From Mesostigma viride (lineage: Eukaryota > Streptophyta > Mesostigmatophyceae > Mesostigmatales > Mesostigmataceae), in NCBI GenBank assembly GCA_009746045.1, contig RPFO01000080.1:10820923-10884922 (forward strand): a stretch of 64,000 bases of DNA, read 5' to 3'. Shown piece by piece: positions 32,442-51,154 of the stretch (its first letter is position 1; each line of letters starts with the position of its first letter). The translations under genes were made by a program, and so were the position numbers. The notes under the pieces were generated by a model, which saw only the letters and a list, made by a program, of their open reading frames with translations, searched no databases and had not been told where the DNA came from.

Positions 32442-32451
32442 TTCAATGGCA

Positions 32452-33499
32452 TGTCACGTCCGTGATCATTTACGTCCGTGCACTCAAGAAGTTACGCGGT
32501 TGCCGTAATCGGAATCGTTACCGACGTTTGGTTGGTTCCGATTCAGTAGGCCGCAGGCTTTGTTCCTTGGGCCGGTGTGGAGCGCCGCGCCGGAAAGGCC
32601 TGAATTTCTAGAGTGACAGTCTTAGGTGACCTGACTTAGGTTCAGGCGCAAGACTTTGGGGCGCAAAGCCTTGGTGGCTTGCGCAATATTCCGGTGCGTG
32701 ACATTTGGCAGTTATGAATCTTTTGTATTGTCCAGACGGAATGATGTTCAGTCCATCTGACAAAGCTAGATACGCAGATCGTAGTGTGCGGTGTGCTGGC
32801 TCGCACGTGGTTGTCGAACAGACTTGCTCTGCATTTTGCTGGCAGTCTAACTGCACGTCAGGCGGCTTGCTGGCAAATGCGACAGCGCATGGATGCCGGG
32901 ATTTTTGGAGGTATTTAGGAGCACAGCAGCGGCCATGGTGGTCGTTGTTCGCTCGTTACTCTCCCTCACAACTAGTTTGTTGTCTTCATGGGGTTAAACT
33001 TCTCGAACAGCCCGGAGCAGCCCCCGTGAGTGGTTGCATGTCGTTGCCATGACGATGGTTGATAGGATTGACAGTGGTTTGATCCGGTTGGGATGTTGTT
33101 GGCATTGTGGACGAGAAACGTTCTGCTGACCCGGGAACAGTCCCGGGAAAGGGCCGGTTCGTCGTTGGCCAGTGTGCCAGTAACTGGGACATGAGCGCAG
33201 AGTCACACAGTTGATATAGATTATGACGTAAGTAAACACTGTTGCGCCACAGTGGCGTCATGGTCGGTCTGTGGTGATTTCGATGGGTCTCAAGGATATG
33301 TAGTTACTCTTACAGTTGCGGCAGCACAACTCGGCATTCATTGTAATTTGTCAAATGTTATGGAATGAATGGTTTGGGCATTGCTTTCATCATAAAGCAT
33401 TATTGCAATCTTCATAATATAAATATCGGCTGGCTGCGCTGCCTGTCATGAAGGTGGTGGTGCCGTCAAGGACCACACCTATCATTTCCACATTATTTA
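32452..33499. repeat. 1.05 kb direct repeat inside X, copy 1
   Basis: Starts TGTCACGTCCGTGATCAT and matches 33901-34950 at nearly every base, with single differences such as GTTACTCTC against GTTTCTCTC and a 2-bp insertion near 34893. It contains small open frames that have no recognised domain and are duplicated with it. Confidence 0.95.
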
Positions 33500-33810
33500 A
33501 CCGAGCGAACAACCCTTGGCGGGTTCAGTTCGGACAGCCTGAGCCGGAGATATACCCAAGCTGCTTGCAGAATCAAGCACTTGGAAGAGGATTAAGCTTA
33601 TCCTTTAAAAAGCTATGAAGAGGATTAGGCTTATCCTTGAAAAAGCCATGAAGAGGATTATGCTTATCCTTGAAAAAGCACTGAAGAGGTTATTGCTTAG
33701 CCTATTTGAAAAGCATGTGTGGTCCTGTCGTGGGAATTTTTTTTTCCCTATGTGATCCTCTTTTTGACTTTTTGGCTCTTCATTTTTTCGAGCTAAAAAG
33801 TGGGGGGGAA
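33500..33810. repeat. 311 bp present only in copy 1 of the X duplication
   Basis: Copy 2 runs directly from ATTATTTA to TATAGTGGATC (34950/34951); copy 1 has 311 extra bases here. The extra DNA includes three tandem GAAGAGGATTA-GCTTATCCTT units (33590-33690). Either an insertion in copy 1 or a deletion in copy 2. Confidence 0.85.
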
Positions 33811-35039
33811 TATAGTGGATCACACACAAGAGTACTCTATTGCTATGGATATGCCTTCCAAGTGATAGGCTAGGATATAATGGCACGCAAACGCGACAGC
33901 TGTCACGTCCGTGATCATTTACGTCCGTGCACTCAAGAAGTTACGCGGTTGCCGTAATCGGAATCGTTACCGACGTTTGGTTGGTTCCGATTCAGTAGGC
34001 CGCAGGCTTTGTTCCTTGGGCCGGTGTGGAGCGCCGCGCCGGAAAGGCCTGAATTTCTAGAGTGACAGTCTTAGGTGACCTGACTTAGGTTCAGGCGCAA
34101 GACTTTGGGGCGCAAAGCCTTGGTGGCTTGCGCAATATTCCGGTGCGTGACATTTGGCAGTTATGAATCTTTTGTATTGTCCAGACGGAATGATGTTCAG
34201 TCCATCTGACAAAGCTAGATACGCAGATCGTAGTGTGCGGTGTGCTGGCTCGCACGTGGTTGTCGAACAGACTTGCTCTGCATTTTGCTGGCAGTCTAAC
34301 TGCACGTCAGGCGGCTTGCTGGCAAATGCGACAGCGCATGGATGCCGGGATTTTTGGAGGTATTTAGGAGCACAGCAGCGGCCATGGTGGTCGTTGTTCG
34401 CTCGTTTCTCTCCCTCACAACTAGTTTGTTGTCTTCATGGGGTTAAACTTCTCGAACAGCCCGGAGCAGCCCCCGTGAGTGGTTGCATGTCGTTGCCATG
34501 ACGATGGTTGATAAGATTGACAATGGTTTGATCCGGTTGGGATGTTGTTGGCATTGTGGACGAGAAACGTTCTGCTGACCCGGGAACAGTCCCGGGAAAG
34601 GGCCGGTTCGTCGTTGGCCAGTGTGCCAGTAACTGGGACATGAGCGCAGAGTCACACAGTTGATATAGATTATGACGTAAGTAAACACTGTTGCGCCACA
34701 GTGGCGTCATGGTCGGTCTGTGGTGATTTCGATGGGTCTCAAGGATATGTAGTTACTCTTACAGTTGCGGCAGCACAACTCGGCATTCATTGTAATTTGT
34801 CAAATGTTATGGAATGAATGGTTTGGGCATTGCTTTCATCATAAAGCATTATTGCAATCTTCATAATATAAATATCGGCTGGCTGCGCTGCCCGTGTCAT
34901 GAAGGTGGTGGTGCCGTCAAGGACCACACCTATCATTTCCACATTATTTATATAGTGGATCACACACAAGAGTACTCTATTGCTATGGATATGCCTTCCA
35001 AGTGATAGGCTAGGATATAATGGCACGCAAACGCGACAG
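33811..35039. repeat. X duplication: short block B, copy 2 of the 1.05 kb block, block B again
   Basis: Block B (33811-33899, TATAGTGGATCACACACAAG...) recurs at 34951-35039. Between them lies copy 2 of the 1.05 kb block (33901-34950). So the order is A, extra 311 bp, B, A, B, and the last B joins the transposase 3' coding end. Confidence 0.93.
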
Positions 35040-36535
35040 GCATACCGCCACGGCAGTGGGCACCACTCTTCCGGCACGTCATCCACGGAGCGCGGGACCT
35101 TTGCAAAGAACTCCTCGTTGCGCTTCTGCATGTCCTGGCAGCCGGGCACGTCAGGTTTAAAAAAGATTCGCCCTTGGCCGCTGGGTAGGTCGAGAACCTT
35201 CTTCTTGATGCCCTTCATGAGCTTGGTGGTGATGAACTGCATGTCGATGGGAGCGGGAGGAGGAGCATCGGCCAGGCCATGCTTGGCCAGCAGGTCAGGG
35301 TCGACAGCACGCACCCCGTACAGAGGCCTCCCCTTAGCATCATGTTTGTATGGGGCGACCTTGACCTTGCCGCTGCGTGGCGCCTTCTCCTCTCGCATAC
35401 CTTCTGGCAGCCACGGCGTCACCGTTGCCTCCGTGGTACGATAGACAAACCACTCTTCATCGCTGCCCTCCACCCTGAAAAATGCCACATGATGCGGCTT
35501 CATTGACTGACCGACCTTCTCAGGCACCTCCTCCCCCACCTTGGCGCACCAGTCGCGTGAGCTGCACCATCGCAGCAGCTTGAGGCTTTTTAGGATGAGG
35601 AGGAATGGGCGGCAGTCCCATGCCTTCCCGAGCACCTTGACCTCCGTGCCCATTGGCACTGTGACATTGCAGCTACCGGCGAGGCTGCTGGAGTCGAATG
35701 CGGCGCGGATTGCGTCCACCCAGCTCTCCAGGGTCCCATACGCGTGCGCCTGCCCGGATGCGCCATCGACACCATGTGACATGGACCCGAGTAGGACACC
35801 AAACTTCTGATCGGTGTCCGCGTGGGTGTGCCCCCGGCGCATCCGGTGCATCTCGACCACATCGAAGACACCGATGTGGACGAGGTACCACGCAAAGAGC
35901 AGGACGGTGTAATTCCTGTTCTCACTGCCACCGTCAGCCTGCAGCACCAAGCAGCGTGGCCTGGGCTTCCCGGACTTGCTCCAGGGACGGTCACGCATCA
36001 CACATGCCAAGCAATGCATGAGCATCGTCACGGTCAGGCTTCCGGATAGGTTGTCGCACATCAGCACCCAGGGGAGGACCACAAACCAAAAGGCCTTGTA
36101 GCCATGCACGGGCGCGCAGAAGAGGGAGAACTGCACCATGTCTTTGCCATCCCAGTTCTTCGAGGCTTGGAGGAGCTTCGGCCAGAATGTCTTGGCGTGG
36201 TCCAGTTTGTCAATATTCATGGAGATGAACTCCCACACCAGCGCCAGATCCCGTCTCGTCCAGTAATTCTGGCGCGCAAAGCGCACCAGCGCGACGTGAA
36301 GCTGGATGAGATGCTTGATCAGCGCACGCTCACCTTCAGTCGCGGCGTACCTCAACAGCTGTCGCAGCTCGGCGCATGTCTCGCACTCGCCCGTGTTCCG
36401 GCTGTGTGGATTTACACACACCTTGGGCGATCCCTCGTAATAATTTCCCTCGCGGTAGCGATGCCACACGGCGTAGAAACCGTGGTAGCCCAGGATCATC
36501 GACCGCGCGGCCTTGTCATTCCAGGGAAGTCGCGC
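34787..36535 (-). CDS. Element X transposase, catalytic part (DUF7869-like, DDE-type)
   Basis: A 570-codon frame, with in-frame coding extending a little upstream into the next entry. Order of motifs: CETCAEL (zinc-type Cys pair); SMNIDKLDH (candidate first catalytic Asp on a beta-strand); LVLQADGGSENRN (second Asp with the Asn that often follows); RRGHTHADTDQKFG (conserved GHTH-x-D-x-DQ-F box, candidate third acid). From memory this matches proteins annotated as DUF7869, which look like RNase H-fold transposases; that assignment needs a search. The last ~95 residues (34787-35050) read through duplicated blocks A and B and may not be genuine; a GTATGC at the WRYACR codons could be a splice donor. 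Likely role: cutting and joining of X ends. Confidence 0.78.
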   Translation of the reverse strand, partial: ARLPWNDKAARSMILGYHGFYAVWHRYREGNYYEGSPKVCVNPHSRNTGECETCAELRQLLRYAATEGERALIKHLIQLHVALVRFARQNYWTRRDLALVWEFISMNIDKLDHAKTFWPKLLQASKNWDGKDMVQFSLFCAPVHGYKAFWFVVLPWVLMCDNLSGSLTVTMLMHCLACVMRDRPWSKSGKPRPRCLVLQADGGSENRNYTVLLFAWYLVHIGVFDVVEMHRMRRGHTHADTDQKFGVLLGSMSHGVDGASGQAHAYGTLESWVDAIRAAFDSSSLAGSCNVTVPMGTEVKVLGKAWDCRPFLLILKSLKLLRWCSSRDWCAKVGEEVPEKVGQSMKPHHVAFFRVEGSDEEWFVYRTTEATVTPWLPEGMREEKAPRSGKVKVAPYKHDAKGRPLYGVRAVDPDLLAKHGLADAPPPAPIDMQFITTKLMKGIKKKVLDLPSGQGRIFFKPDVPGCQDMQKRNEEFFAKVPRSVDDVPEEWCPLPWRYACRVCVPLYPSLSLGRHIHSNRVLLCVIHYINNVEMIGVVLDGTTTFMTRAAQPADIYIMKIAIMLYDESNAQTIHSITFDKLQ

Positions 36536-37320
36536 TCCGCATCCTCCACGTACATGCTATGCATGTGAGTTATCGGCATGGCGTCCATGTACACCACGTC
36601 GGGCCGCGCAGGGTCACAGTCACCTAGATCCCTCACCAGGTTGCTGATCCACCTTGCTGCATACTCCGTGGCATCGGAGCGCCCCTTGACCCGCTCACGT
36701 CGCTCAGCATCCGCACGCGCACGCAGCAGCTGGTATTGGCCGACGTCATCACGGGCATCGAAAAACTGGGTCGAATGTGCGATGCACTTTACCACCTTGT
36801 TCCAGCCTGAAGAGTCAATGCCAAGGAGTTTGCGCATCGCAGTTGCGCACGCACTGAGGGTGACGGTTTGACGGCGAGGCCCGTCGCCGAGCTTGACGTC
36901 CACATGCACTTGACCCGTGATCGTGATGGTGCAGTGCCCACCCACCTCTGAGGGCTTCACCCGAATGTTGCCCACACCTACAGAGCGGATGATGCTGTTA
37001 AGTCGTTGAGTGCGTGCCTTGTCTGAGAGACTGTAAAAGTCCTCGCGCACGGCTGTCCACACGTCCGGGTTCGCGAGAAGACTGTCGTACGTCGTGAGGC
37101 AGTGGTTGCTGCACTTGCAGCTGCGGTCGTTGTGCCAATCAGCATTAACGGCAGCCACCTTCTTCTTTTTAAGCTCGCTTCCCGTCTGCTTGCCAGGACG
37201 CTTCGGCCGAGATGGCGCGTCTGCAGATGGGTGCATCGGGTCTCCGTCATGGTACGCAAAATCATCATCGTCGTCCGAGTCGGAGACAATACCTCCGTCC
37301 CACTCGACATGTTCGGCCAT
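36496..37320 (-). CDS. Element X transposase, N-terminal part
   Basis: A 274-codon frame from ATG at 37318-37320. It has an acidic start (a run of Asp at about residue 16), a basic patch with four Lys (about residue 51, possible nuclear signal), then CKCSNHC (three Cys) and a conserved region ending HSTQFFDAR. It is homologous to the protein at 50437-51099. It overlaps the catalytic frame by an ATGA. In the other frame the codons just upstream (W-N-D-K-A-A-R-S) join smoothly to the catalytic part, so a single missing base in TTCCCTGG (about 36533-36540) best explains the split. I therefore treat both as one gene of about 830 codons. Confidence 0.78.
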   Translation of the reverse strand: MAEHVEWDGGIVSDSDDDDDFAYHDGDPMHPSADAPSRPKRPGKQTGSELKKKKVAAVNADWHNDRSCKCSNHCLTTYDSLLANPDVWTAVREDFYSLSDKARTQRLNSIIRSVGVGNIRVKPSEVGGHCTITITGQVHVDVKLGDGPRRQTVTLSACATAMRKLLGIDSSGWNKVVKCIAHSTQFFDARDDVGQYQLLRARADAERRERVKGRSDATEYAARWISNLVRDLGDCDPARPDVVYMDAMPITHMHSMYVEDAERDFPGMTRPRGR

Positions 37321-37779
37321 TTTGCTATCCTAGCCTTTATCTCTAACGTTTATAAAAGTTTCAACCTAAACCAAAAGCAGGACTCCCCCGGCGCTGAATG
37401 GATGCCGGACCTCATAAGAGTAAGCAGCTCAGCGCCTATTACTGTCCTGTGTAAACCTAATCCCATTTTTGTCATCAATGCTAACAACTCGTCTCCAAAT
37501 CAACTACGTCGGCTATTTTTCGGCTCCGTGCCTATTCATTTCGGCGTCACTTGTTAAACCACAAAATAATATCCTGCAGTCAGCCTTGTCTGCCATAAAT
37601 CCAACTATAAACTGCTAAGGTACCGAAAGCTTCACGGCTATTTACGTAATAATGATGTGCCGCCAGGGCACGCACTGAAGACTTGAACGCAGGCGCCCCT
37701 GTTGGCAGTCACGTGGCGAAGTCGTTGCAACAACTTGCCTAAGCAGCGAACAGCTGGGGAACTTGCCGCCAAAATGTAC

Positions 37780-38285
37780 GCAGCCTGCCTCGGCAGCTGG
37801 GGAAGTAACTACTTGCGTCTTGCGGCCAAGATACGCAGCCTGCCTCGAGAGGGCTGCGTATCTTTGCCGCAGCCTGCCTCACCAGCTAAAAACCTTGCGG
37901 CCAAGATACGCAGCCTGCCTCCTCGAGAATTAGCTGGTGAGGCAGGCTGCGGCCAAGATACGCAGCCTGCCTCGGCAGCTGGGGAAGTAACTACTTGCGT
38001 CTTGCGGCCAAGATACGCAGCCTGCCTCGAGAGTCGAGGCAGGCTGCGTATCTTGGCCGCAAGACGCAAGTAGTTACCCTGGCAGCCAAATGACCAGCTA
38101 AAAACCTTGCGGCCAAGATACGCAGCCTGCCTCCTCGAGGATATCCTCGAGGAGGCAGGCTGCGTATCTTGGCCGCAAGGTTTTTAGCTGGTGAGGCAGG
38201 CTGCGGCAAAGATACGCAGCCCTCTCGAGGCAGGCTGCGTATCTTGGCCGCAAGACGCAAGTAGTTACCCAGCTGCAGCCAAATG
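37780..38285. repeat. Palindromic block between divergent genes of X
   Basis: Alternating forward and inverted copies of a ~50-bp core containing TTGCGGCCAAGATACGCAGC followed by CTGCCTC. Clear snap-backs occur around the CTCGAGAGTCGAGG centre (38022-38040) and the CCTCGAGGATATCCTCGAGG centre (38133-38152), with arms of 40 bp or more. It lies in the 1.1 kb gap between the transposase start (37320) and the PHD gene start (38465). It could serve as promoter, transposase binding region or silencing trigger; none is proven. Confidence 0.92.
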
Positions 38286-38464
38286 ACGCCGCAGCCTCTT
38301 GCCTAAACGTAAGTTATATTCAAAGTTCCAGATCCCGCGCAAATTGACTCGATACATTGCAGCGTGCAGCGCCCAGCAAACGAAGGTTAAATCGCAGCCG
38401 GCACCATTGGAAGGTTGCGTGCAATCTTTGTCTATTTTCCGGTGGTTAAATCTGTAGCAAGCGA

Positions 38465-41218
38465 ATGCAGGGGTCAAGCGGCCCCTGCTATGCAGGGAAT
38501 AGATGCAAGAAATTGCCCGGCGCTGATCATGCAACCGGATTTGATAGTGTCGACAAAAATGAGCTGCTGGGCGGAGCCAACCACCCATGCTCAGGCCAGT
38601 GTGGCAAGCACTTGCATGGGCTGTGCACCGGGATGTTTAGGGATGCATCGGCGGGTGAGGATGGCACAGAGTGGACTTGCCAGGAGTGTGGCGGCCCTTG
38701 GCCGCCTACCGCCATCACCAAGGAGGCCTCGCCTGTCGATTTTAAGGAAAAGGTGGTCGACGCCCAACTGGCCGGCCTTGGTGCTCTTTATTCGCTGGGC
38801 GGCAAGGGCAAGGTCGTTAAGGTTCCATCACGGAAACTCGTTAAGCTAGCCAAAGTCGTGGATGGAAGGGTCGACGATGGTGAGCTGGGTTCTGGTGATA
38901 ATATTGACGAGGGTCATGTCGATGATGATGCAACGGGTGGTGGCGTCGAGGAGAAGAACGGCCCAGGCGGTGTTGCGCTTGGTGGTGGCGTCGAGGAGGA
39001 GAGCGGCGCAGGCGGCAATGGTGCGATGGGTGATGGCGAGGAGGAGAAGAACGGCCCAGGCGGCAATGGTGCGATGGGTGATGGCGAGGAGGAAAAGAAC
39101 GGCGCAGGCGGCAAGGGTGCGATGGGTGATGGCGAGGAGGAAAAGAACGGCGCAGGCGGCGAGGGTGCGATGGGTGATGGCGAGGAGGAAAAGAACGGCG
39201 CAGGCGGCAAGGGTGCGATGGGTGATGGCGAGGAGGAAAAGAACGGCGCAGGCGGCAAGGGTGCGATGGGTGATGGCAATCAGGACAAGAGCGGCCAAGG
39301 TGATGCAGCTTTGCGTGCTGCGATGGGCCCCACGGTTGGCAAGCATGCTGTTGGCGGCGCGCACATTCCCGTGGTTGAGCGCGACGCCTCCAAGAAGGAG
39401 AACACCCCGGGCCCTGCAGCTGGTACCTTTCGGGCTTCGGCGTCGCGTCATTTCGATGTCGGCGACACAAGAAAAGAACTAGCTTTTTCTCCTCCACCGG
39501 CAGGGCCGGGGATGCACAAAACACCAGGCGGTGCTTCCACCAGCGACAGCGAGGATGATATCGTGGCCCTTGCAATCCCCGAATGGCCTCATGTGGGGGT
39601 GGTAGTGGGGGCAATCGCGAGCTCGTCAATCTGCGCGCATTTTGTGAGGCAGAGCCGCTACAAGAAATTTAAAAACTTGCTCGACCGACTCAAAGGCAGC
39701 CCAACCAGGCGACCGTCCGCGATCGGATTTTTCGACGCAGTGGTCATCGTTGTCAACGACAAGAATGCCACCACGTTTCCCACTACCCTGGGGTTGGAGC
39801 ACAAGGGCGTTCTCCCATCATCCGCTTGGAATGAGGACATGCAGGCGGTGATGAGTTGGGCCATCAAGAACAAGGCGGACCTGCTGCCCCAGATATTGAG
39901 TGCTGGCCCACCGCCATTCATCATGTCCGCTGAGCAGTTTCCAGGATCGGCCCTCTTGGCGAAATACCCGGCTACGCTGCCACGTCTGCCAGCTTGCATA
40001 ACACAAGACTCTGACATGCCCGACCCACAAATTGCAGGGCTGCCCGCGTTGCAGGAGGTCACCAACCTGCATGGGCGCGGCAAGCGCATCGTGAGCAAGC
40101 AGCCTGCCAAAGAAGCTGCGGCGACGAAACCAGTCAAGCGCCAGCGCCGCTCAGAAAACGGCTCAGCGCCTGCCAAGCAGCCTGACGCCCCGGCTGAAAA
40201 TTCGAAGGGGATGGCAGCGCTGCTGCAGCAATTCGACAGCATGATGAAGCAGCAACAGCAACAGCAACTGCAGCAATTTAATGCCATGATGACAAAGCTG
40301 CAGCAGCAGCAGCAGCAACAACAGCAGCAACAGCAGCGACTGCTGCAGAAGCATAAAGAGGCGGCGGCGGCAGTGGCAGCGGGGGCGGCAGCCGCCGCAC
40401 CCACCAAAGCAGCGGTGGCGGCAGCCGGTGTGCCCACCACGGCAGCGGCGGCAGCGGCGGCAGCGGTGGCAGCGGCGGCAGCGGTGCCGGCAGCCAGTGC
40501 GCCCCCTGCGGCAACAGCGGCAGCGGTGCCGGCACCAGACTATGCGCCACGCGAGGCGCCGCGCATGTATGTGCCATACGAATCTGCGCCACGCGAGGCG
40601 CCGCGCATGTATGTGCCACGCGAATCTGCGCCACGCGAGGCGCCGCGCATGTATGTGCCATACGAATCTGCGCCACGCGAGGCGCCGCGCATGTATGTGC
40701 CATGCGAATCTGCGCCGCGCATGTATGTGCCATGCGAATCTGCGCCACGCGAGGCGCCGCGCATGTATGTGCCAAGCGAATCTGCGCCACGCGAGGCACC
40801 GCGCATGTATGTGCCGTACGAATCTGCGCCACGCGAGGCACCGCGCATGTATGTGCCATGTGAATCTGCGCCACGCGAGGCGCCGCCCATGTATGTGCCA
40901 TGCGAATCTGCGCCACGCGAGGCACCGCGCATGTATGTGCCATGTGAATCTGCGCCACGCGAGGCACCGCGCATGTATGTGCCGTACGAATCTACGCCAC
41001 GCGAGGCGCCGCGCATGTATGTGCAATACGAATCTGCGCCACGCGAGGCGCCGCGCATGTATGTGCCATGTGAATCTGCGCCACGCGAGGCGCCGCGCAT
41101 GTATGTGCCATGTGAATCTGCGCCACGCGAGGCGCCGCGCATGTATGTGCCATGTGAATCTGCGCCACGCGAGGCGCCGCGCATGTATGTGCCATACGAA
41201 TTTGCGCCACCGCGTTAG
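38465..41218 (+). CDS. Element X PHD-finger protein, 917 aa, highly repetitive
   Basis: Starts at ATG 38465, or less likely at the in-frame upstream region. Residues ~8-78 hold Cys-x5-Cys ... CSGQCGKHLHGLC ... WTCQEC, i.e. C4-H-C3 with the Trp two residues before the last Cys pair, as in PHD fingers. Then come acidic/Gly repeats of 16 aa (GAMGDGEEEKNGAGG type, ~residues 185-275), a conserved-looking domain (~364-540), a basic KPVKRQRR patch (~557), a Gln-rich tract (~592-627), an Ala-rich tract (~632-688), and sixteen 14-aa APREAPRMYVPYES repeats (one shortened) to the end. The homolog at 48990-49478 keeps the PHD finger. PHD fingers often read histone H3 tails, so a chromatin-targeting role is plausible but inferred. 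It diverges from the transposase. Confidence 0.8.
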   Translation: MQGSSGPCYAGNRCKKLPGADHATGFDSVDKNELLGGANHPCSGQCGKHLHGLCTGMFRDASAGEDGTEWTCQECGGPWPPTAITKEASPVDFKEKVVDAQLAGLGALYSLGGKGKVVKVPSRKLVKLAKVVDGRVDDGELGSGDNIDEGHVDDDATGGGVEEKNGPGGVALGGGVEEESGAGGNGAMGDGEEEKNGPGGNGAMGDGEEEKNGAGGKGAMGDGEEEKNGAGGEGAMGDGEEEKNGAGGKGAMGDGEEEKNGAGGKGAMGDGNQDKSGQGDAALRAAMGPTVGKHAVGGAHIPVVERDASKKENTPGPAAGTFRASASRHFDVGDTRKELAFSPPPAGPGMHKTPGGASTSDSEDDIVALAIPEWPHVGVVVGAIASSSICAHFVRQSRYKKFKNLLDRLKGSPTRRPSAIGFFDAVVIVVNDKNATTFPTTLGLEHKGVLPSSAWNEDMQAVMSWAIKNKADLLPQILSAGPPPFIMSAEQFPGSALLAKYPATLPRLPACITQDSDMPDPQIAGLPALQEVTNLHGRGKRIVSKQPAKEAAATKPVKRQRRSENGSAPAKQPDAPAENSKGMAALLQQFDSMMKQQQQQQLQQFNAMMTKLQQQQQQQQQQQQRLLQKHKEAAAAVAAGAAAAAPTKAAVAAAGVPTTAAAAAAAAVAAAAAVPAASAPPAATAAAVPAPDYAPREAPRMYVPYESAPREAPRMYVPRESAPREAPRMYVPYESAPREAPRMYVPCESAPRMYVPCESAPREAPRMYVPSESAPREAPRMYVPYESAPREAPRMYVPCESAPREAPPMYVPCESAPREAPRMYVPCESAPREAPRMYVPYESTPREAPRMYVQYESAPREAPRMYVPCESAPREAPRMYVPCESAPREAPRMYVPCESAPREAPRMYVPYEFAPPR

Positions 41219-41311
41219 CGTCCCAACAGGACCTTGTGACTAATTATTACTAGAATAACCCGCTGGCTCCGCCCAGCCCAAAGCAGGGTCCCTTTTTTTG
41301 GCAGTAATTTG

Positions 41312-41907
41312 CCCCGCTGCCCGCAGCCCGCTGCCCGCTGCCCGCTGCCCGCTGCCCGCTGCCCGCTGCCCGCTGCGCGCTGCCCGCTGCCCGCTGCCCG
41401 CTGCCCGCTGCCCGCTGCCCGCTGCCCGCTGCCCGCTGCCCGCTGCCCGCTGCGCGCTGCCCTCTGCCCGCTGCCCGCTGCCCGCTGCCCGCTGCCCGCT
41501 GCCCGCTGCCCGCTGCCCGCTGCCCGCTGCCCGCTGCCCGCTGCCCGCTGCCCGCTGCCCGCTGCTCGCTGCCCGCTGCCCGCTGCGCGTTGCCCGCTGC
41601 CCGCTGCCCGCTGCGCGTTGCCCGCTGCCCGCTGCCCGCTGCCCGCTGCCCGCTTCCCGCTGCCCGCTGCCCGCTGCCCGCTGCCCGCTGCCCGCTGCCC
41701 GCTGCCCGCTGCCCGCTGCCCGCTGCCCGCTGCGCGCTGCCCGCTGCCCGCTGCCCGCTGCGCGTTGCCCGCTGCCCGCTGCCCGCTGCGCGTTGCCCGC
41801 TGCACGCTGCACGCTGCCCGCTGCCCGCTGCGCGTTGCCCGCTGCCCGCTGCGCGCTGCCCGCTGCCCGCTGCCCGCTGCGCGTTGCCCGCTGCCCGCTG
41901 CTCGCTG
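41312..41907. repeat. (CCCGCTG)n minisatellite near right end of X
   Basis: About 85 copies of the heptamer CCCGCTG, with occasional GCGCTG, GCGTTG and CACGCTG variants. Seven is not a multiple of three, so all frames stay open and encode artificial Cys/Pro/Leu/Ala repeats. It follows the PHD gene stop by about 95 bp. Confidence 0.97.
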
Positions 41908-42365
41908 GAATAGGATGTTTTATGACATGCTTAGATCACCGCCCATTCATGCATTATAGGACATGGCATTATTATTAAGAGCAACATCATGGGTATTGTG
42001 GTAGTGCAACATCTTGGCTAATCAGGACAACGATTTATTTCTCAGACAACTAGTAACGGCTTGTACTTACACGACGTTGGACCGCCTTGCGTCAAGGAAT
42101 AGTTGTCTCACTTAATCTATGCTCACGTGACGCAGTCTACATGATTACTAATTACTTTTAATAAATTAATTGATGTGCATTGTGCATAACTCAATGGTGA
42201 GAACATTTGTGTATTCACATACATACACGTGAAACAAGACGGCAGTTATATACACATAAAAACAGTTGAATCCCATTCAAAAAATTATCATGCAGAAGCA
42301 AGCATGCGTAAGGCACCAATAAGCTAATGTTTTCACGCTTTGGCTGCAGGACTGTCCTAAATGGA
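41908..42365. other. Element X right subterminal region
   Basis: AT-rich, no gene seen. Ends in GGCTGCAGGACTGTCCTAAA and then the right inverted repeat. Confidence 0.55.
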
Positions 42366-42395
42366 CAAATCTGTCCTAACCCAAACAAACCACCA
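42366..42395 (-). repeat. Element X right terminal inverted repeat
   Basis: Read on the minus strand, begins TGGTGGTTTGTTTGGG. It is preceded on the plus strand by GGCTGCAGGACTGTCCTAAA. The flanking CTT follows at 42396-42398. Confidence 0.93.
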
Positions 42396-42398
42396 CTT

Positions 42399-43514
42399 CC
42401 TCTTCAGCACAAATCTCAAAGCAAGCTTCCTTGATGCTGGGGGACGTCTGTCTGTTGGTGCAGCACACTCAAACTGCAACCACTCCTCCAATGCCTTGGA
42501 GAAGGCGAGCTTCCAAGCCTCAAACAAAGTAGGCGAGCTCATCTCTTGGACTAGCTGGTCATATGTCAAAGGAGAGTGTGCAGCAAGGCTCCTGTGAGTT
42601 ATGCCAATACTGCTGGGGTGCAACACAGCTGGAATCACCAAACTGGCTGCTGGGGGCACCTCCCCTTCATCCCATTTTACACCCTTGACCGGCTTGGCCC
42701 TGCACCTGACTGGAAATGTTGTCCTGAAATTTTCTAGGGGAATCATCCCCCAGCCATCTCTTCTCAGAGCTGTAGCTCTGATAGAAATCCCAGGATTGCC
42801 CAGAAAATTCTGACCCAAAATCACAGGGCCATCATAGTCCTCTAGGACAAGGAAGGTCACATCCACACCCATGACAGGGGCAGTAACCTCTCCCAACACC
42901 CTCAGATGCGTCCTACCACTGAAATCAGACACCCAGGGGCAACTTGGTTCTCCGACCAGCAGTTCTCCTGTATGCTGAGGTCCCATGACAGAAACCTGTG
43001 CATTGGTATCTATCTCCATGGCAGCTACCTCAGGTTCATCCAACTGGATAAGCTTGGACACCTTAGGTTCCTTCTTGGCTCTTTGCAAAGCCTGTACAAT
43101 ATCTGATAGACGCACACCCCTAGGCCTGGTGTCGGGCCGTTCCGGAGGTGCAGCCTGTCCGCCTGCTTGCCCAACCACCGTATGTGAAGGTACCCCAGGG
43201 GCCGGGCCAGGGTCACCCTGAGGGCTCGATACAGCTGTAGCACCCTGATCAGGAAGTTCCACGTCAACCCCGCCTTGTACACCAACGGGCACCTGGAAGA
43301 GGTCTCCTTGATTACCTCCCCGGGGACGGATCTTTGACCAGGACAGACGGTGCACTGCTTGGGAGCCATCAATGGCCACCCAGCACTTATGGCCAGCGGC
43401 TTCTACTCGGGTCACCACCCCATCTTGCCAGCTGCCACGTTTCCCTGGAAAGCTTGGCTCCTTCCACACAACAACCTGTTGTCCAACGTTAGGTTCTAGG
43501 ACACTCCAGCCCTT
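42399..43514 (-). pseudogene. Copia-like pol: integrase end, retropepsin-like domain, RT N-terminus
   Basis: On the minus strand the order is: an SH3-like integrase C-terminal stretch (VGQQVVVWKEPSF ... VAIDGSQAVHRLSW), a Pro/Gly-rich linker, a retropepsin-like domain (EIDTNAQVSVM, where DTNA replaces the usual DTGA, ending VILGQNFL), and an RT N-terminal region (FEAWKLAFSKALEEW ... LRFVLKRK). X interrupts right after the last Lys. At the other end the 5-bp duplication CCCTT marks insertion of the gag-only LTR element. Longer open reading beyond both points is only read-through into the insertions. A retropepsin between integrase and RT is not the usual Copia order. Confidence 0.82.
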
Positions 43515-44213
43515 TGTTAGAATTATATTCTGTCCGATGGCTTTCTTACGCTGAACAGTTACGGCCGATTTACAATATATGGCCGAGACGTTTACGCGTG
43601 AATGAATCTGTACTAGTGTGACGGAATCTTTTTCAGACGTACCTATATTTTCAGTCCACTTGGTCAAAGTCCGATGTAGTATAAATCGGCACTCAATATA
43701 TTTTCCAGCACTGTTTGCTGTCATCCGTAACGTACCGAGCACTGTCCTGCCGGTACTGTAGCCGTCGTACAAATTTGCCTGGATCCGCGCTTCGCGCCGA
43801 CCCCTTTTTCACTTAGTGCTGCCCTGGAGGCGCAATGTCCTTGTACTTGCATACTAGTGACCCAACGCATCATGTGTGTTGATGCAAGCCACCCACGTTT
43901 TGTGTGGCGGCTGGCCTGCACCCTAACTGTGCCGTAGATTTTTTACTAAATCGACGGCTATAGGGACGGTGTGCTTTTCCACATAATGTTGCTCTGGCAA
44001 TTTGTCCTGTAAGCCTTGACATGCTAAGCTATGGCAGCTGGCCGCCCCATGGCCGCAGCCTAGACTATGTTGGATGAATGATTAAACGAATATTACCAAT
44101 GAATTCGCCTCATTTTTCTCCATAAGTCAAAGGTCTTCAAGTACCGGAACTTTCCTCCGATAGCCAGCATTTATTGTGCAAGCTAGGAGAAGTTTTTGGC
44201 CATTTTCCTGACA
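43515..44213 (+). repeat. 5' LTR of gag-only element
   Basis: Begins TGTTAGAATTATATTCTG and ends TTTTCCTGACA. It contains a TATAAATCGG box at about 43680. Confidence 0.95.
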
Positions 44214-44232
44214 TGGTATCGGCTGCATAAGC
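44214..44232 (+). promoter_or_regulatory. Primer-binding site of gag-only element
   Basis: TGGTATCGGCTGCATAAGC directly follows the LTR. TGGTATC matches the 3' end complement of initiator Met-tRNA, the usual plant Copia primer. Confidence 0.75.
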
Positions 44233-44821
44233 TACGATTCGCTTTTGACCACTCAACAAATCGTAAGCCGGCCCTCTGCGGATTTTGCTGGCCCATATTT
44301 CTCTTCCTGCAGCTTTCTTTTGGAATTTTGGATGTCTAGGCATGTCTGGGCTTGATCACCCCAGCATAGACTTGGTGCAAGTAACTTTTGAATTCCAAGG
44401 CAAGAGAGCCATTGTGGCCATCAATCCGGTACAGGCAAGACGCTGGGTTATTGAGATTATTAGGGATACATACGATTCACCACAGGGGGAGTGTCCCCTG
44501 GACTTTGTAATCCTGAATACCCTGATTGGTTCTTACCTCCAATATCTTCAAAGTGAGGGAGCAGATATCGACTGAGCAACGAGACCTTTTGTTGGTTTCT
44601 TGTGAGCACTCCTACTGTGCTCCTGTTTTGACGCGTTGCGACTGTGCGGCACTCTGCTATTTCCATATCCAGTGTGACCTGGTGCCTGGCCTGCCCTGTC
44701 ACTGGTCTTAATCCGAGTTGTAGTCGCGTTTGCTGCGTCCCACCTTTTTTTTTCTGGAGCTATCCTTTCTGCTGCAATTACACTGTACTGGTGTGGTGAC
44801 TACTTTGTGGAGAGCTGAACC

Positions 44822-45727
44822 ATGTCGCGGGCAGCTGCGTCTCGTGACCCTGGCGAGCATCCTATGGTTGTGGGTGCCAGAGCCGTACAGCCATCACTCC
44901 GGAACGTGACACGTTTTGATCCATGCAACGACTTCGCGGGTTGGGTCGAGCTTGAGGCAATACTGGAGGCGTCCTGTGATGCCCAAGGGGTGCTGGGGGT
45001 GTTAGATGGTAGTGCTGATATGTCCCTGGAGCACGTCAAGGCGGCTGACAAGCTTCTGCGATCCACCTTGCTGGCTATTCTTAAGGGACAGGCCATCCGC
45101 GAGGCCCGCACTGTTGACCCCCCTACTGTAAGCGCCGTCTATAAGCATCTAAAGTCTACCATTCGCCAGCCGTATTTGACCGAGTCGTATAAACTGGAAA
45201 AGAAGCGTCAACTGTACCGGATTGCCATCATGCAGAATGAGACTGCGCCGAAGTACTGGTCCCGTGGTATGATGATGAAACAGGACCTAGAGGACGCAGG
45301 CGTTATGGTTACCTGGGACGAGTGGAAGGACTGCCTGCTGGCTGGGCTGTCGACCGCGCACCGCGCGGCCATGGCCGCCCGCCGCACACCTGGCATGACC
45401 CTCCAACAGATCCGTGACCTAGTATTTGAGATTGACGACCTGCTGGCGCCCCGGGATCCTGCCAAACCTACCAACAAGCCCGTGGACCCTGCTACCCACA
45501 CCGAGGGCGCCGCGTACTCTACCTCCTCCGGGGGTAGTAAGAAGCGGTGCACCTTCTGCCGTCGGCCTGGACATCTCCAGGAGACCTGTTACCGCAAGTA
45601 TCCCAACCTCCGGCCGCGTGACAACCAGGACAAGGCCCACCTCACTCAGGAGGCTGGAGAAGTTCCACCTGGTTTCTGTTTCAACACCATGGCCGCGGTC
45701 ACTGATGACTTAGCTACCCAGCTGTAA
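44822..45727 (+). CDS. Copia-type Gag with CCHC zinc knuckle
   Basis: 301 aa from ATG 44822 to TAA. It has the Copia gag fold pattern (F-x-G-W near residue 40; KHLKSTIRQPYLTESYKL; WDEWKDCLLAGLS; LQQIRDLVFEIDDLL), then a zinc knuckle CTFCRRPGHLQETC (C-x2-C-x4-H-x4-C) near residue 245. Gag would form virus-like particles and bind element RNA. The frame is intact, unlike every other retroelement gene in the window, consistent with recent activity supported in trans. No pol frame follows; the next feature is the polypurine tract. Confidence 0.92.
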   Translation: MSRAAASRDPGEHPMVVGARAVQPSLRNVTRFDPCNDFAGWVELEAILEASCDAQGVLGVLDGSADMSLEHVKAADKLLRSTLLAILKGQAIREARTVDPPTVSAVYKHLKSTIRQPYLTESYKLEKKRQLYRIAIMQNETAPKYWSRGMMMKQDLEDAGVMVTWDEWKDCLLAGLSTAHRAAMAARRTPGMTLQQIRDLVFEIDDLLAPRDPAKPTNKPVDPATHTEGAAYSTSSGGSKKRCTFCRRPGHLQETCYRKYPNLRPRDNQDKAHLTQEAGEVPPGFCFNTMAAVTDDLATQL

Positions 45728-45888
45728 AGTTTTTATCTCCTCTGTCCTGCTTGAGTTAATCTGGCAAGTCTGACCTGTGATGGTCTCATGGGCCCCGGGG
45801 TGTCCTGTACCCCCTAGTTATAGACTGGCCGTGTCTTCTCTGTGGGCAAGGGGGTGTGTTTGTTTTATTTTGCCCGTCAGCTTCAGCC

Positions 45889-45904
45889 ATCGACCAAGGG
45901 GGTG
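45889..45904 (+). promoter_or_regulatory. Polypurine tract of gag-only element
   Basis: GACCAAGGGGGTG lies directly before the 3' LTR. It is the expected plus-strand primer site for reverse transcription. Confidence 0.7.
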
Positions 45905-46603
45905 TGTTAGAATTATATTCTGTCCTATGGCTTTCTTACGCTGAACAGTTACGGCCGATTTACAATATATGGCCGAGACGTTTACGCGTGAATGAATCTG
46001 TACTAGTGTGACGGAATCTTTTTCAGACGTACCTATATTTTCAGTCCACTTGGTCAAAGTCCGATGTAGTATAAATCGGCACTCAATATATTTTCCAGCA
46101 CTGTTTGCTGTCATCCGTAACGTACCGAGCACTGTCCTGCCGGTACTGTAGCCGTCGTACAAATTTGCCTGGATCCGCGCTTCGCGCCGACCCCTTTTTC
46201 ACTTAGTGCTGCCCTGGAGGCGCAATGTCCTTGTACTTGCATACTACTGACCCAACGCATCATGTGTGTTGATGCAAGCCACCCACGTTTTGTGTGGCGG
46301 CTGGCCTGCACCCTAACTGTGCCGTAGATTTTTTACTAAATCGACGGCTATAGGGACGGTGTGCTTTTCCACATAATGTTGCTCTGGCAATTTGTCCTGT
46401 AAGCCTTGACATGCTAAGCTATGGCAGCTGGCCGCCCCATGGCCGCAGCCTAGACTATGTTGGATGAATGATTAAACGAATATTACCAATGAATTCGCCT
46501 CATTTTTCTCCATAAGTCAAAGGTCTTCAAGTACCGGAACTTTCCTCCGATAGCCAGCATTTATTGTGCAAGCTAGGAGAAGTTTTTGGCCATTTTCCTG
46601 ACA
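45905..46603 (+). repeat. 3' LTR of gag-only element
   Basis: Same length (699 bp) and nearly the same sequence as 43515-44213. Confidence 0.95.
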
Positions 46604-47527
46604 CCCTTGTCTTTCTGCCTCAGCTTGAGGAACTTGGCCTCTAGCTTCTCCTTCCATGCCTGCTCAGCATCAACTGGCAGCATCCTGGTGTGCAGCATAA
46701 GAGGATTGATGGCAATGTCACCAAAGAACATGGGAGTCCTGAGGTTCAGCCTACTGATCCTCCACAGAACGTAGCCATGCAGATGTCACAATGGCAGATG
46801 ACGTCCTTGGAATCCTCTCCACCAGCAGCACAGTCTTGATCTCTTGGATGGCTCTCTCCACAACCCCTTGCTGGCCGTGGCTCTCCCTGGGTGTAATCAG
46901 CAACTCTGGAAATTCTGGCAGGTTCTCACAGCACTCAAACTGAATGTCACACTGCAGCAACTCCAACCCAGGGTACCTGCTCCTTGTCAACTTCAGAGCA
47001 GCAATCAATGTAGGCTTCTCCATGTCAGGCAGGATCTCTAGGGTCTTGTACTTGGTATATCTGTCCACTGCCACCAGCAGCTTCAAACCCCTGATTCTCT
47101 GAATATCTACCTGCACATGGCCTGGCTGCAAAATAGGAGACCTGGCATGAGACTGCTTGGGCTTTCTAGCAACTAGCCTGCACTTGCAAGCTTGAGCAAC
47201 CTGTTGGCAAATGGAGTACAACTCACTTCCTCCCAGCCGTCTAGCAACTTGCAAAGACTGAGCTGCATGGCCAAACATGGTATGCAACCTTGAGGCAATG
47301 TCATACAAGAGAGAAAATCTTTTATTGTCATTATTAGCACTCAAGGTATGTACAGATCCCTTATGGACAGGAGGCACCAGGGTCGTGCCTGTCAGACTGT
47401 CTCCAGCCCTATCCTCATCCTGACCCTCCTGTGCCAGTCCTGCACGGTCAGAATGCTTCTGAGATCCACCTGGGTCCACAGCACCAGGTCCTACCTCAGG
47501 CTCAGCCGGCACCGCCATGGCGGGCAC
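46604..47527 (-). pseudogene. Copia-like integrase (part of split element)
   Basis: Minus-strand frame with an HHCC-like zinc domain (LHTMFGH ... ICQQVAQACKC) and a catalytic core with Asp in QVDIQRIRG, Asp in LLQCDIQFE and Glu in GVVERAIQEIK. The spacing between second Asp and Glu is 30 residues rather than the common 35. A frame change near 46770 precedes the last part (DAEQAWKEKLEAKFLKLRQKDKG), which connects in phase with 43514 across the CCCTT duplication. The gag-only LTR element split the gene at that point. Confidence 0.85.
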
Positions 47528-47708
47528 GTTGGCGAGTAACCACTGCAGCTACAGCTGGCATACTCTCTGTGGTAACCAAGCTTGCCCCATCGTGTCCAAT
47601 AGGCTCTGTCACTAGAGCATGGGGCTGCCCCTCACTGCTGTCACTAGCAGCTACATTACACACCCCTGGGGGCACCCTCCAGGGTTCAGGGATGTGTGCA
47701 GGCTCAAG

Positions 47709-48179
47709 TCAATGATCAGTAGCCTTGCCCTTGCCCTTATCCTGGGATGGACCAGCTTTCTCCTTGCTGCCACCCTGAGCGGGCTTGCTCTGACCTTCCT
47801 GCCTCAGGTACGAGGGACACTCATTCCTGAAGTGACCCTTCCCTTGGCAGAAATAACATTCCACCTGACTGATGTCCCGTGAGGTCCCACTGCTGGGCCC
47901 AGCCTTGGGAGGACCACCCACCCTCTTGAAGTCAAACTGGGACTGTGGATGCCCCGACTTCGGAGGTGTCCCCCGTCCAGCCATTCTGCCACGCCCCCTC
48001 CGGGACCTTCCTCGACCCCTAGAAGAGGTCTCAGGCCCCCTCGAGGACGCTGGGCCCCCGTGGCCCGATCCCCTCATGGCTGTTGCGGTGAGACTGTGCA
48101 GTGCGTTGTGGCACTGCTGGACCGACGAGACTTGCAGCCCACCGGTAACCTTCATGACTGATTTGCTCCCGCGCCTCAC
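47709..48179 (-). pseudogene. Copia-like Gag C-terminus with zinc knuckle
   Basis: 156-codon frame ending at 47709. An Arg/Gly-rich stretch (SSRGRGRSRRGRGR) is followed by a zinc knuckle CYFCQGKGHFRNEC (C-x2-C-x4-H-x4-C) and a Lys/Gly-rich tail. It is upstream of the integrase on the same strand. The ~180 bp between the two holds no protease motif. The gag N-terminus is not recognised beyond 48180, so the element's 5' end is missing, diverged or interrupted. Confidence 0.8.
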
Positions 48180-48989
48180 GAATGGTGTGCATGTTATGGA
48201 GGCTCATCAGTGGCGGTGCAGCGCAGGTAATAGAATTCATGCCAAAGTCGCAGCGTATTCTCGTCACAATGCTGACGCACCCGACTGCATGATCGATTGT
48301 CTTGCCCGACCCTGGAGTTTGTAGGTGCCAGCACGAAACCGGCATTCGGGTGCACAATAACTGCACGCAGCATGCTTGGTCTGACACGTAGCTGTGTGGG
48401 GCGACCACGTCACCCGCACTGACTTGACGAAACTGTCCAGCAGCATGTGTCCAGGAGACCGTTCCCTGCAAAAGTCGCGGTATGGGAAGACAAGCAATGC
48501 AATTTAAATAAAAACGCAAGCACTAGTCAGCTACCATTCCCATTGAATCACAACCAACAAGCAAGCCATAGTCTAGGTGGCTGGAGCTAAGTTCAATTGG
48601 AGTGCCTTCCTACCAAGAGAAACAGATTCCCTCGCGGGGGCGTGCAAACTCAGGCATAGCGTACTAGCCCGCAGCCCTACCGCTTTGCAACCCCCCACGA
48701 GTGAAATTTTATATTTTATAGTGCCATTAGCCGTGCAGGGTTTTATATACACACAGTGTAGAGCACTACTGTACACACAGTCTATAGCATTGTCAACCAA
48801 GCAAATCCAAATACATGTCACAGAAACAGTTTTCCTTCAAACACACCTGGTATAACGAGCTGCCAGGAGAAAACTCGACCGGCGAGGTGCCCTTGAGCAC
48901 TCTGAGAAACCAAAGGAGTTTCAACAGGAACTCCTACAGTGATAGGAACTCCTTTCGCCGTCGCGTTGCTCAGCGTCGTTTGCGGCACT
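48180..48989. other. Junction region between Copia gag and element Y
   Basis: No LTR or terminal repeat is recognised. Part of the minus frame across 48818-49150 continues the PHD gene of Y after a frameshift. The left boundary of Y is therefore unknown and lies somewhere here. Confidence 0.4.
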
Positions 48990-49478
48990 TCACCGGACGG
49001 CTGCACATCGCCGTTCGCCAGCCCTGAGACTTCCGGCAAGTGGCTCTGCGGCGTTTCCTGTGTGACCCTTGATGTCGCAGCCGTTCCCGCCGGATGCGTA
49101 ATTCCTGGTAAGGGCCCTGCTCCGAAATCCACCTCTAGCTGCCGTGAGGTGGGCCGGGTCGTTGGGACGCAGCCTAAACCTGTTAGCAAAGGCAGCCATG
49201 GCATCGTCTGGGGCATCTCCTGGTAACTGAGCATCGGGCACCGTGCACTGCACACATTTCCAAACAGTCTGTCCACTGCTGTTAGTACCGGTAGGGTTCG
49301 TCGGTGACAGCAAAAACGTGCATGCAGCATGCGCCTTTCTCCCGCACTTTCCGGAGCATTCGCAGGTAGCGCCCTTGAGAAACTTAGGGTCATTGCCATT
49401 TGCGGAGGCTACATGGCACTCTGCGATACCAGCCTCACAGTTAGCATCGTCCAATGCATCGTCGGCAGTAGTAGGCAT
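48990..49478 (-). pseudogene. Element Y PHD-finger protein (frameshifted)
   Basis: 162-codon frame from ATG at 49476-49478. The N-terminus matches that of the X protein: Cys-x5-6-Cys, then LKGATCECSGKCGRKAHAAC and W-K-C-V-Q-C, again C4-H-C3 with Trp two residues before the last pair. After about residue 110 the reading appears to move to another frame (GPLPGITHPAGTAATSRV ... down to about 48818). It lacks the long repeats of the X protein in what is left. It diverges from the transposase fragment at 50437. Confidence 0.72.
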
Positions 49479-49603
49479 GGGAGAAACCTCACGTAATTGT
49501 TACTGATCATAGTCAGAGCCGGTTGATCAATGCGCTTTGCGACTTGCGGGCACAATTAAAGTTGAACTCCGCGCTCACAGCCTCCGTTGAGCAAACCTGT
49601 TTC

Positions 49604-50082
49604 AATTGCCAACCGAGATGTCAAGTTGTCAAACGAGATGTCAAGTTGACAACCCAAGTGCCTCCTGAACTGTCAACTAAAAGTCTAAAGCCGCAATCGA
49701 CAGTACTACAAGTTGACAGTTCAGGAGGTAGGCTGGTTTTGCGCAATTGCCTACCTTCTGAACTGTCAACTAAAAGTCTAAAGCCGCAATCGACAGTACT
49801 ACAAGTTGACAGTTCAGGAGGTAGGCCGGTTTTGCGCAATTGCCTACCTCGGGCTTCTGAACTGTCAACTAAAAGTCTAAAGCCGCAATCGACAGTAAGT
49901 ACTACAAGTTGACAGTTCAGGAGGTAGGCCGGTTTTGCGCAATTGCATGACTACCTTCTGAACTGTCAACTTGTAGTACTGTCGATTGCGGCTTTAATTA
50001 GACTTTTAGTTGACAGTTCAGGAGGCACTTCGGTTGTCAACTTGACATCTCGTTTGACAACTTGACATCTCGGTTGGCAATT
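49604..50082. repeat. Large inverted repeat with internal direct repeats between divergent genes of Y
   Basis: Arms 49604-~49732 and ~49955-50082 are complementary over about 125 bp apart from small indels (an extra ATTA in the right arm). The arms contain GAGATGTCAAGTTG twice, GTGCCTCCTGAACTGTC and GCCGCAATCGACAGTACTAC. Between them the AACTGTCAACTAAAAGTC... block occurs twice more in direct order, separated by GGTAGGC(T/C)GGTTTTGCGCA. Function is not known. Confidence 0.94.
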
Positions 50083-50436
50083 TACCATCTCGTAATTTGG
50101 TGCCTGCAAGTCGGTGAACAACCTGTCAGCTCGCCGACCAACTCGACTTCCCGCCTAACTCAGGTGCTTCCCGCGTATTATGCATGACACTTCACTGCCA
50201 GGTTGGCTTGTCCCATTCTGCGTACTTCCGCGGCAACTGCATTTTGCCACTGTCGACTAACTGCTTGTGAATGTGTTACGAGGCAGTAATGCATTACGAG
50301 GATGAACTGATGTAAATGTGTGGAAATTAGCTCAGTCTTCTGTAGGAGTTGTGCATTGACTACTAGTAATTTCTCTATCAGTGGGTCATGTGGACAGGTC
50401 CACGTTCAGTTGACAGCTGCGCACCATGCGTTGAAA

Positions 50437-51099
50437 ATGGTGTCTTCTTGTTCGAGGTCAGCCACCCCCGGCGGCAGGACAGCAGCCTTTGTCTACAGGG
50501 ATGGTAGCGTGTGCGTCACCAATGTTGGCTCCCTCGGCACGGATTCTAACCAGCCGGGGGCAGCTGGCTGCCTTGGTAGCGAACGCAGGCAAGCAGGGAG
50601 AAAGAGCATCGCCACGGTGCGGTCGGAGAAACTGGTGGACAGCGTCATCGTCGCTGACATGAGCCTTATTCGCACATGCTGCCAAAAGGATTGCATGGGA
50701 CCAGTCGGCACCTCAGTCCGGGATTTCCGAGTCTGGTGTGCAGCCAGAGAAAAGTACCTTGGCTTGCAAAAGCAGGAGGAGCGCAGCCAATTCGTGGTCA
50801 GTCTGCTGCAGAAGCACGGACTTCAGAACATCGTCGTCGAGCCGCCGGGAGGCACGCATCCGATTAATTATTGGAAGTACGATGTGAAGGGCCAGATGTC
50901 CCTGCCTGTGAGCATGCCAAATGGTGACAAGGCCGAGATTGTCGCCTGCCACAAGGTTATCCAGGCTGTCCTGTGCATCTCGGCACCTGTGTGGCACAGT
51001 CTCTTGAAGGCGGCGGTGCATGCAGAGTCTGAGCACGAGTCGGGCGAGTTCGCCTACGATGATATCGCCCTCGACGTCGGAGCTAGGCTTGACCTCTGA
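50437..51099 (+). pseudogene. Element Y transposase N-terminus (truncated)
   Basis: Starts at ATG 50437 (Met-Val-Ser-Ser-Cys). It aligns with the N-terminal part of the X transposase: CCQKDC for CKCSNHC; VWCAAREKYLGL for VWTAVREDFYSL; HGLQNIVVEPPGG for VGVGNIRVKPSEV; VSMPNGDKAEIVACHKVIQAVLCI for LGDGPRRQ...CATAMRKLLGI; and a shared WHSLLKAAVHAE region for WNKVVKCIAHST. A TGA ends it at 51099, before any catalytic motif. Identity to X is low, so X and Y are different families of one superfamily. Confidence 0.75.
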
Positions 51100-51154
51100 A
51101 CAGCTGCAGCATAGAGGACAAATTAGGACAAAGTCCTAAATTTAGGACCGTGAG

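Follow-up and report, generated by a model that had tools for sequence, protein, structure and literature searches.

Divergent transposase and PHD-like genes in the window

Analysis of a 64,000-bp stretch of the Mesostigma viride genome (contig RPFO01000080.1, positions 10,820,923 to 10,884,922; hereafter the window) revealed two related elements, X and Y, each carrying a candidate transposase gene and a gene for a PHD-like protein that diverge from a repeat-rich spacer. Element X, although broken, is a complete cut-and-paste transposon with terminal inverted repeats (TIRs) and a 3-bp target-site duplication (TSD), and Y is the remnant of a distant relative of X, locus L060 being a full-length relative of the Y type. 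The four gene starts given in a preliminary description of this DNA (transposase at 37320, minus strand, and PHD gene at 38465, plus strand, in X; PHD gene at 49478, minus strand, and transposase at 50437, plus strand, in Y) were reproduced. Element X proved to be larger than had been described, extending from 29418 to 42395 between copies of the duplication CTT, and Y turned out to be only a fragment. The homology of both proteins between the two elements, also claimed earlier, was confirmed: the PHD-like proteins were 35% identical over 46 amino acids (E 7e-6, with L060 standing for Y), and the transposase N-termini of X and the Y type were 27% identical (E 7e-12, place C810).

Conservation of the gene pair in the genome

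The searched genome comprised 440 Mb in 2243 contigs, the window being located on contig C1106. These searches revealed at least four groups of elements, X, W, V, and Y, in which the matched part of the transposase N-terminus was 47-54% (W), 33-45% (V), and 26-27% (Y) identical to that of X. In the linkage count, W and V were defined as identity bins relative to X (46-89 and 33-45%, respectively), and each may hold several lineages. With 150 of the 398 PHD candidates scored, a PHD match was found within 12 kb of 113 of the 134 X, W, and V transposase matches (X 10/11, W 15/15, V 88/108), and because of this scope the 20 V matches without a partner represent an upper bound. The PHD match was on the opposite strand and upstream in all 113 pairs, and within 2 kb in 105 of them. 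Similarly, 36 of the 39 Y-type transposase matches had a Y-type PHD match within 12 kb, which was divergent in all 36 cases and within 2 kb in 33. Thus, all 149 paired matches were divergent. The X, W, and V count used 137 of 141 transposase rows, four second pieces of counted copies being omitted and both pieces of the copy on C2111 being kept; three of the 137 rows were of the Y type and stand outside the 134. The Y count used 39 of 147 transposase rows and 39 of 78 PHD rows; the transposase rows set aside were second pieces or relatives at 50% or less, for the most part V copies once more. Copies belonging to one group cannot be counted as independent; what does count as independent evidence is the four groups, and these support the transposase and the PHD-like gene as a conserved divergent pair.

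The two genes were also followed in shortened copies. Within the same scored set of PHD candidates, 30 matches to the 5' part of the X-type PHD gene had no transposase match, and most of them contained an open frame of 154 amino acids. The one that was read (L061) is an internal deletion derivative without the transposase core; what it retains is the PHD finger together with the spacer and about 26 transposase codons. The short PHD proteins of such derivatives could act as regulators. In the Y-type deletion derivatives L014-L038, which have been amplified, both gene starts and the spacer are likewise retained and the transposase core is lost, some of these derivatives being identical over 3.3-3.5 kb. 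That some copies are near-identical and that deletion derivatives have been amplified suggests recent activity. The V copy that was read (L059) has a PHD frame of just 115 amino acids and may be decayed. In addition, 16 places (e.g., C1:13654228 and C1391:4492222) hold sequences distantly related to the Y transposase N-terminus (31% identity), with open frames of 306-343 amino acids and no PHD match within 12 kb; they may represent a further subfamily or a family of host genes.

Ends and structure of the elements

The left end of X reads GGGTGGTTTGTTTGGGTTAGGACAG and the right end is its reverse complement, while W starts with GAGTTGTTGCGCTGGATTAGGACA. The motif TTAGGACA occurs twice per end in X1 and W2, giving four occurrences per element. 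Identical 3-bp TSDs flank eight of the nine X and W copies for which both ends were located, namely CTT (plus strand) in the window copy, X0, TTG in X1, TCC in X2, CAT in X5, TGC in X6, ATG in W2, TTC in W3, and TCG in W4; the mismatched flanks of X4 are the sole exception. This count covers X and W copies only, W1 and X3 having no located left end. In Y the right end alone was reached (..CCAGCCC), as defined by eight short derivatives, each of which has a different flank, and for V no ends were found.

The other X copies with both ends measure 10.1-10.5 kb. The transposase gene of the window copy is disrupted by a one-base frameshift and by a 2586-bp insertion (Table 1); the internal direct repeats of this insertion (32453-35038) are 99.5% identical over 1.05 kb, and it is perhaps a small element of the long terminal repeat (LTR) type. 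Minisatellites with units of 48, 42, and 14/21 bp lie within and behind the X PHD gene (38926-41914). The broken edge of Y is adjoined by a TTAGGAC-rich, transposon-end-like segment (51112-51157), one of two paired TTAGGAC sites in the window, which borders an apparent LTR; the window also holds LTR-retrotransposon-like frames.

Table 1. Positions of the features of elements X and Y within the 64,000-bp window.
Feature	Position	Strand	Remarks
X whole transposon	29418..42395	minus (transposase on minus strand)	Ends located with X1-X6; 12978 bp including a later 2586-bp insertion
X target duplication copy 1, CTT	29415..29417		3 bp
X target duplication copy 2, CTT	42396..42398		3 bp
X terminal inverted repeat, transposase 3' end	29418..29444	plus	Carries TTAGGACA
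X terminal inverted repeat, PHD-side end	42369..42395	minus	Carries TTAGGACA, differing from the pattern at one position
X transposase, first open part (N-terminal frame of 274 amino acids)	36496..37320	minus	
X transposase, second open part (DUF7869 match)	34787..36499	minus	Homologous down to about 35039
Later insertion in X transposase	32453..35038		Bounded by TGTC..GACA; contains a 1.05-kb direct repeat
X transposase, third open part (repeat-containing C-terminal region)	30303..32441	minus	
X PHD-like protein, 917 amino acids	38465..41218	plus	C4HC3 finger, acidic repeats, second domain common with W, Q-rich and repeat tail
X divergent spacer	37321..38464		
X spacer repeat array	37777..38287		Inverted and direct copies
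Y transposon fragment, both ends lost	48079..51111	plus (transposase on plus strand)	Match to L060
Y PHD-like gene, open part of 162 amino acids	48990..49478	minus	
Y transposase N-terminal fragment	50437..51099	plus	
Y divergent spacer	49479..50436		
Y spacer repeat array	49604..50082		Inverted and direct copies

The candidate transposase and the PHD-like protein

In X1 the transposase is encoded by a continuous open frame of 1484 amino acids. One transposase from each of the four groups was compared with Pfam, and all four exceeded the cut-off of DUF7869 (PF25273), with 46-58 bits against 26, and reached no other Pfam cut-off. Six acidic residues, D371, D374, D463 (in DGGSENRN), E467, D502, and D504, are invariant in the four groups and appear to resemble a DDE active site. 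Within X, pN/pS, the ratio of nonsynonymous to synonymous differences, was 0.42 for the transposase gene in two pairs out of three, no differences being present in the third, and 0.35-0.46 between variants of the PHD gene, with 0.32 and 0 in two pairs that had two differences each. Based on few differences, values of about 0.4 are consistent with constraint on both genes. Neither the X transposase nor the four-group alignment, used as queries against a protein collection, had a match at E 0.001, a scan of viral contigs revealed no relative, and a PDB search with the transposase profile returned four matches, none below E 0.5. The name DUF7869 was absent from the literature searched, and its Pfam entry carries no function.

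The PHD-like proteins keep the C4HC3 order of eight metal ligands and the tryptophan before the last cysteine pair in all four groups. Across the six reading frames of the window, only the two PHD genes show this pattern. Those of X and W also share a second domain, which is 31% identical over 201 amino acids (E 1e-17). In the PDB, the PHD profile matched best to the PHD finger of Pygopus (E 0.0095), the alignment covering the second half alone. Methyl-lysine readers often have an aromatic residue two positions before the metal-binding histidine. This position is F or W in Pygopus, whereas it is H in X, H in W, V in V, and K in Y. H3 tails, whether modified or not, are what PHD fingers as a rule read (PMC8086355).

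The spacer between the genes

Both window spacers contain large inverted repeats, as the preliminary description had reported, with arms of 126 nt in X and 85 nt in Y, each 99% complementary. The share of the spacer in inverted 12-mers was 0.39 in X and 0.41 in Y, compared with a maximum of 0.042 in 50 base shuffles, and among the 110 tiles of 1150 bp in the window the inverted fraction exceeded 0.3 in just the two over these spacers. The X1 and Y1 spacers could not be aligned with each other (score 22; maximum of 20 shuffles 31), in agreement with the preliminary description, which had called the spacers unrelated. Repeats were then measured in six X copies (X5 being without a PHD gene), four W copies, one V copy, 26 of the 29 Y loci L010-L038, and the window Y. 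Palindromic spacers were present in 6/6 X copies (inverted fraction 0.39-0.54) and, with fractions of 0.33-0.56, in the window Y and at 26/26 measured Y loci, which represent eight distinct sequences. No inverted 12-mers were found in the spacers of W (0/4) and V (0/1), which have arrays of direct repeats (direct fraction 0.42-0.43 in W and 0.66 in V). The palindrome, described earlier as common to the plan of these elements, thus holds for X and Y and fails for W and V, whose spacers have direct repeats only, spacers without inverted repeats being a finding that the preliminary description itself had named as refuting; the palindrome was therefore rejected as a conserved functional feature.

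An array in a comparable position was common to the spacers measured. In nine of the measured spacers, which formed the sample for array position, the array started 125-229 bp from the PHD start codon in 9/9, and in 8/9 it ended 354-456 bp short of the transposase start codon. The arrays of X1 and W2 are related, with a local score of 46, whereas 300 dinucleotide shuffles reached at most 33 and 140 other tiles at most 30. Their common unit, approximately GAGGC-AGGC--CGTATCT, is present in both orientations in X1 and in one in W2, so that its orientation looks immaterial. The core GATACG occurs 10 times in the X1 spacer, 9 times in that of W2, and 8 times in that of V1, and is absent from the Y spacer. 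GATACG was not found in the last 400 bp of the X1 and W2 ends, and TTAGGACA was not found in the X1 or W2 spacers; repeated spacer 11-mers did not recur near the X1 and W2 ends, though a few recurred inside the elements. Two separate cis signals thus appear to be present in X and W, one at the ends, presumably for the transposase, and one between the genes. Identity of the spacer motif with the end motif was rejected for X1 and W2, both of whose ends were located.

Interpretation and alternative explanations

On balance, we regard it as probable, by a modest measure, that a single family of two-gene cut-and-paste transposons includes both X and Y and has a shared divergent promoter and a PHD-like accessory protein acting in trans. 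We infer that the DUF7869 protein is the transposase and would recognize the element ends through TTAGGACA. The spacer would be the shared divergent promoter: whichever way its short sites point, their array would serve both genes, so that both proteins would be made together. Judged from the sequences, an orientation-free array between divergent genes would have the look of a shared upstream regulatory region, and the palindromes of X and Y may be a by-product of sites that happen to lie both ways round. With less assurance, the PHD-like protein may be a trans-acting accessory, a histone-tail reader that would tie the transposase complex to chromatin. Of the two roles that had been proposed for the spacer, a bidirectional promoter is thus plausibly the better one, and a transposase-bound region gains no apparent support from the motifs, as the end motif does not extend into the X1 and W2 spacers.

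Several results weigh against this reading. The PHD-like proteins of W, X, and V remained below the cut-off of Pfam PF00628 (17.4, 17.3, and 16.6 bits, respectively, against 24), and those of Y matched no Pfam family. The structure models were too poor to use, both for the PHD domain (mean pLDDT, a per-residue confidence score, of 38) and for transposase residues 1-660 (mean pLDDT 46), and a fold search with this latter poor model gave nothing at E 0.001. A further 24, more distant, transposase relatives had no PHD match within 12 kb with the queries used. Regarding the spacer, only the X-W pair stands out, the V and Y spacers having no significant similarity to those of other groups, and in V1 the last repeat of the array lies only 78 bp from the transposase start. 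The copy X5 (L047/L048, contig C1646) has TIRs, the TSD CAT, the array, and the transposase, and no PHD gene. Finally, 23 of the 110 window tiles were rich in direct repeats; such arrays being common in the window, the array alone is weak evidence.

These repeat-rich tiles favor the view that the arrays are neutral minisatellites and that the divergent gene pair alone is conserved, the array having no function. Repeats of this kind are found in many places of these elements, coding parts included, and the array units vary between groups. The constant position in 9/9 measured spacers and the relatedness of the X and W units beyond shuffles and other tiles speak against neutrality, which we consider rather unlikely. 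It is also unlikely, in our judgment, that the array is an internal binding region for the transposase or the PHD protein, required for transposition itself. The spacer is retained in the amplified Y derivatives and in the X derivative L061, all of which have lost the transposase core, and the array is kept in X5; this retention may, however, just reflect a single internal deletion, and the motifs of ends and spacers are disjoint in X1 and W2, with the repeated spacer 11-mers not occurring near these ends, though a few recur internally. It is very improbable that in X and Y the palindromic spacers represent separate insertions of foldback elements or miniature inverted-repeat transposable elements (MITEs), of which large inverted repeats are typical, since the inverted array is present in every measured X spacer and Y locus as well as in the window Y, and the X unit is related to the direct array of W.

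The copy X5 bears on the PHD gene, which might be a passenger or a silencing regulator rather than a partner in transposition. Its array-plus-transposase part is 99.9% identical to X6 over 5287 bp, and leftwards of the array edge about 4.3 kb of unrelated sequence without the PHD pattern takes the place of the PHD half. As the ends, the TSD, the array, and an open transposase frame of 1364 amino acids are kept, the PHD gene seems dispensable in cis, and X5, if it is no assembly artefact, is an element able to move without its own PHD gene. Chromatin genes are also known to ride in fungal DNA transposons (PMC12730594). On the other hand, the pair is retained in four groups whose transposase N-termini are only 26-54% identical to that of X, pN/pS is about 0.4, and X5 could be an assembly artefact or be served in trans, with other X copies supplying the PHD protein. 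Such a role as a passenger or silencing regulator seems rather doubtful to us. The conserved three-part unit of PHD gene, transposase, and palindromic spacer that the preliminary description had proposed is upheld in its divergent gene pair; the palindrome is not general, and X5 and the 24 distant relatives count against a strict unit of three parts. The signs of recent activity make both the two-protein requirement and the promoter array directly testable.

Comparison with known systems

EnSpm/CACTA elements have CACTA-type ends and a 3-bp TSD, the latter agreeing with X and W. This superfamily was rejected, as the ends GGGTGGTTTG (X), GAGTTGTTGC (W), and ..CCAGCCC (right end of Y) are not of the CACTA type and no CACTA Pfam match was obtained. 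Zisupton (KDZ) elements, which have an 8-bp TSD (PMC12730594), were likewise rejected, given the 3-bp TSD found here and the lack of a KDZ match in Pfam. In Rehavkus a PHD finger is linked to the transposase (PMC6446971); it lies inside the transposase and the TSD is 9 bp, whereas the PHD-like protein of the elements described here has a separate gene and the TSD is 3 bp. The fungal TET/JBP transposons provide the example of chromatin genes carried by DNA transposons mentioned above (PMC12730594). A literature search covering titles and the starts of abstracts, with Repbase and subscription papers outside its range, revealed, among the papers listed, no separate transposon-encoded PHD gene outside those on RAG.

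The closest parallels are two-protein transposons. Harbinger elements likewise carry two genes, and their canonical TSD is 3 bp (PMC12730594), as in X and W. A DNA-binding, Myb-like accessory protein helps the Harbinger transposase to enter the nucleus and to reach the ends (PMC9179366). The partner is of the Myb/SANT type in Harbinger, whereas it is PHD-like here, next to a transposase with DUF7869 only, and no Myb/SANT or Harbinger transposase domain was detected by Pfam in the present proteins. The RAG-like transposons (RAG1L and RAG2L; TransibSU and ProtoRAG) also combine a transposase and a second protein as two genes within one TIR transposon, and RAG2 contains a PHD finger (PMC4411706). 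They differ in their TSD, which is 5 bp as opposed to 3 bp in X and W, and in gene orientation: RAG pairs are convergent according to PMC7204232, the wording of PMC4411706 for such pairs being "head-to-head", whereas all 149 pairs found here were divergent. Pfam gave no RAG1-type transposase or Kelch match, which leaves room for remote homology.

It is possible, though as a whole doubtful, that a superfamily outside RAG/Transib has independently paired a DUF7869 transposase with a separate PHD histone reader that acts in trans, both being expressed from a single divergent promoter driven by the array, as a counterpart of RAG1/RAG2. Lacking the usual aromatic residue two positions before the histidine, this reader would be predicted to read unmethylated and not trimethylated H3K4. 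DUF7869, matched by the transposases of all four groups, is located here in elements with TIRs and TSDs; it can thereby be placed, as the candidate transposase, in elements whose ends are defined and whose TSDs are 3 bp long. A transposase with a separate PHD-like protein beside RAG1/RAG2 would allow the question of why a transposase needs such a partner to be asked in an independent system. The arrangement works like the two-protein transposons Harbinger and RAG-like, and the tests applied place it outside both.

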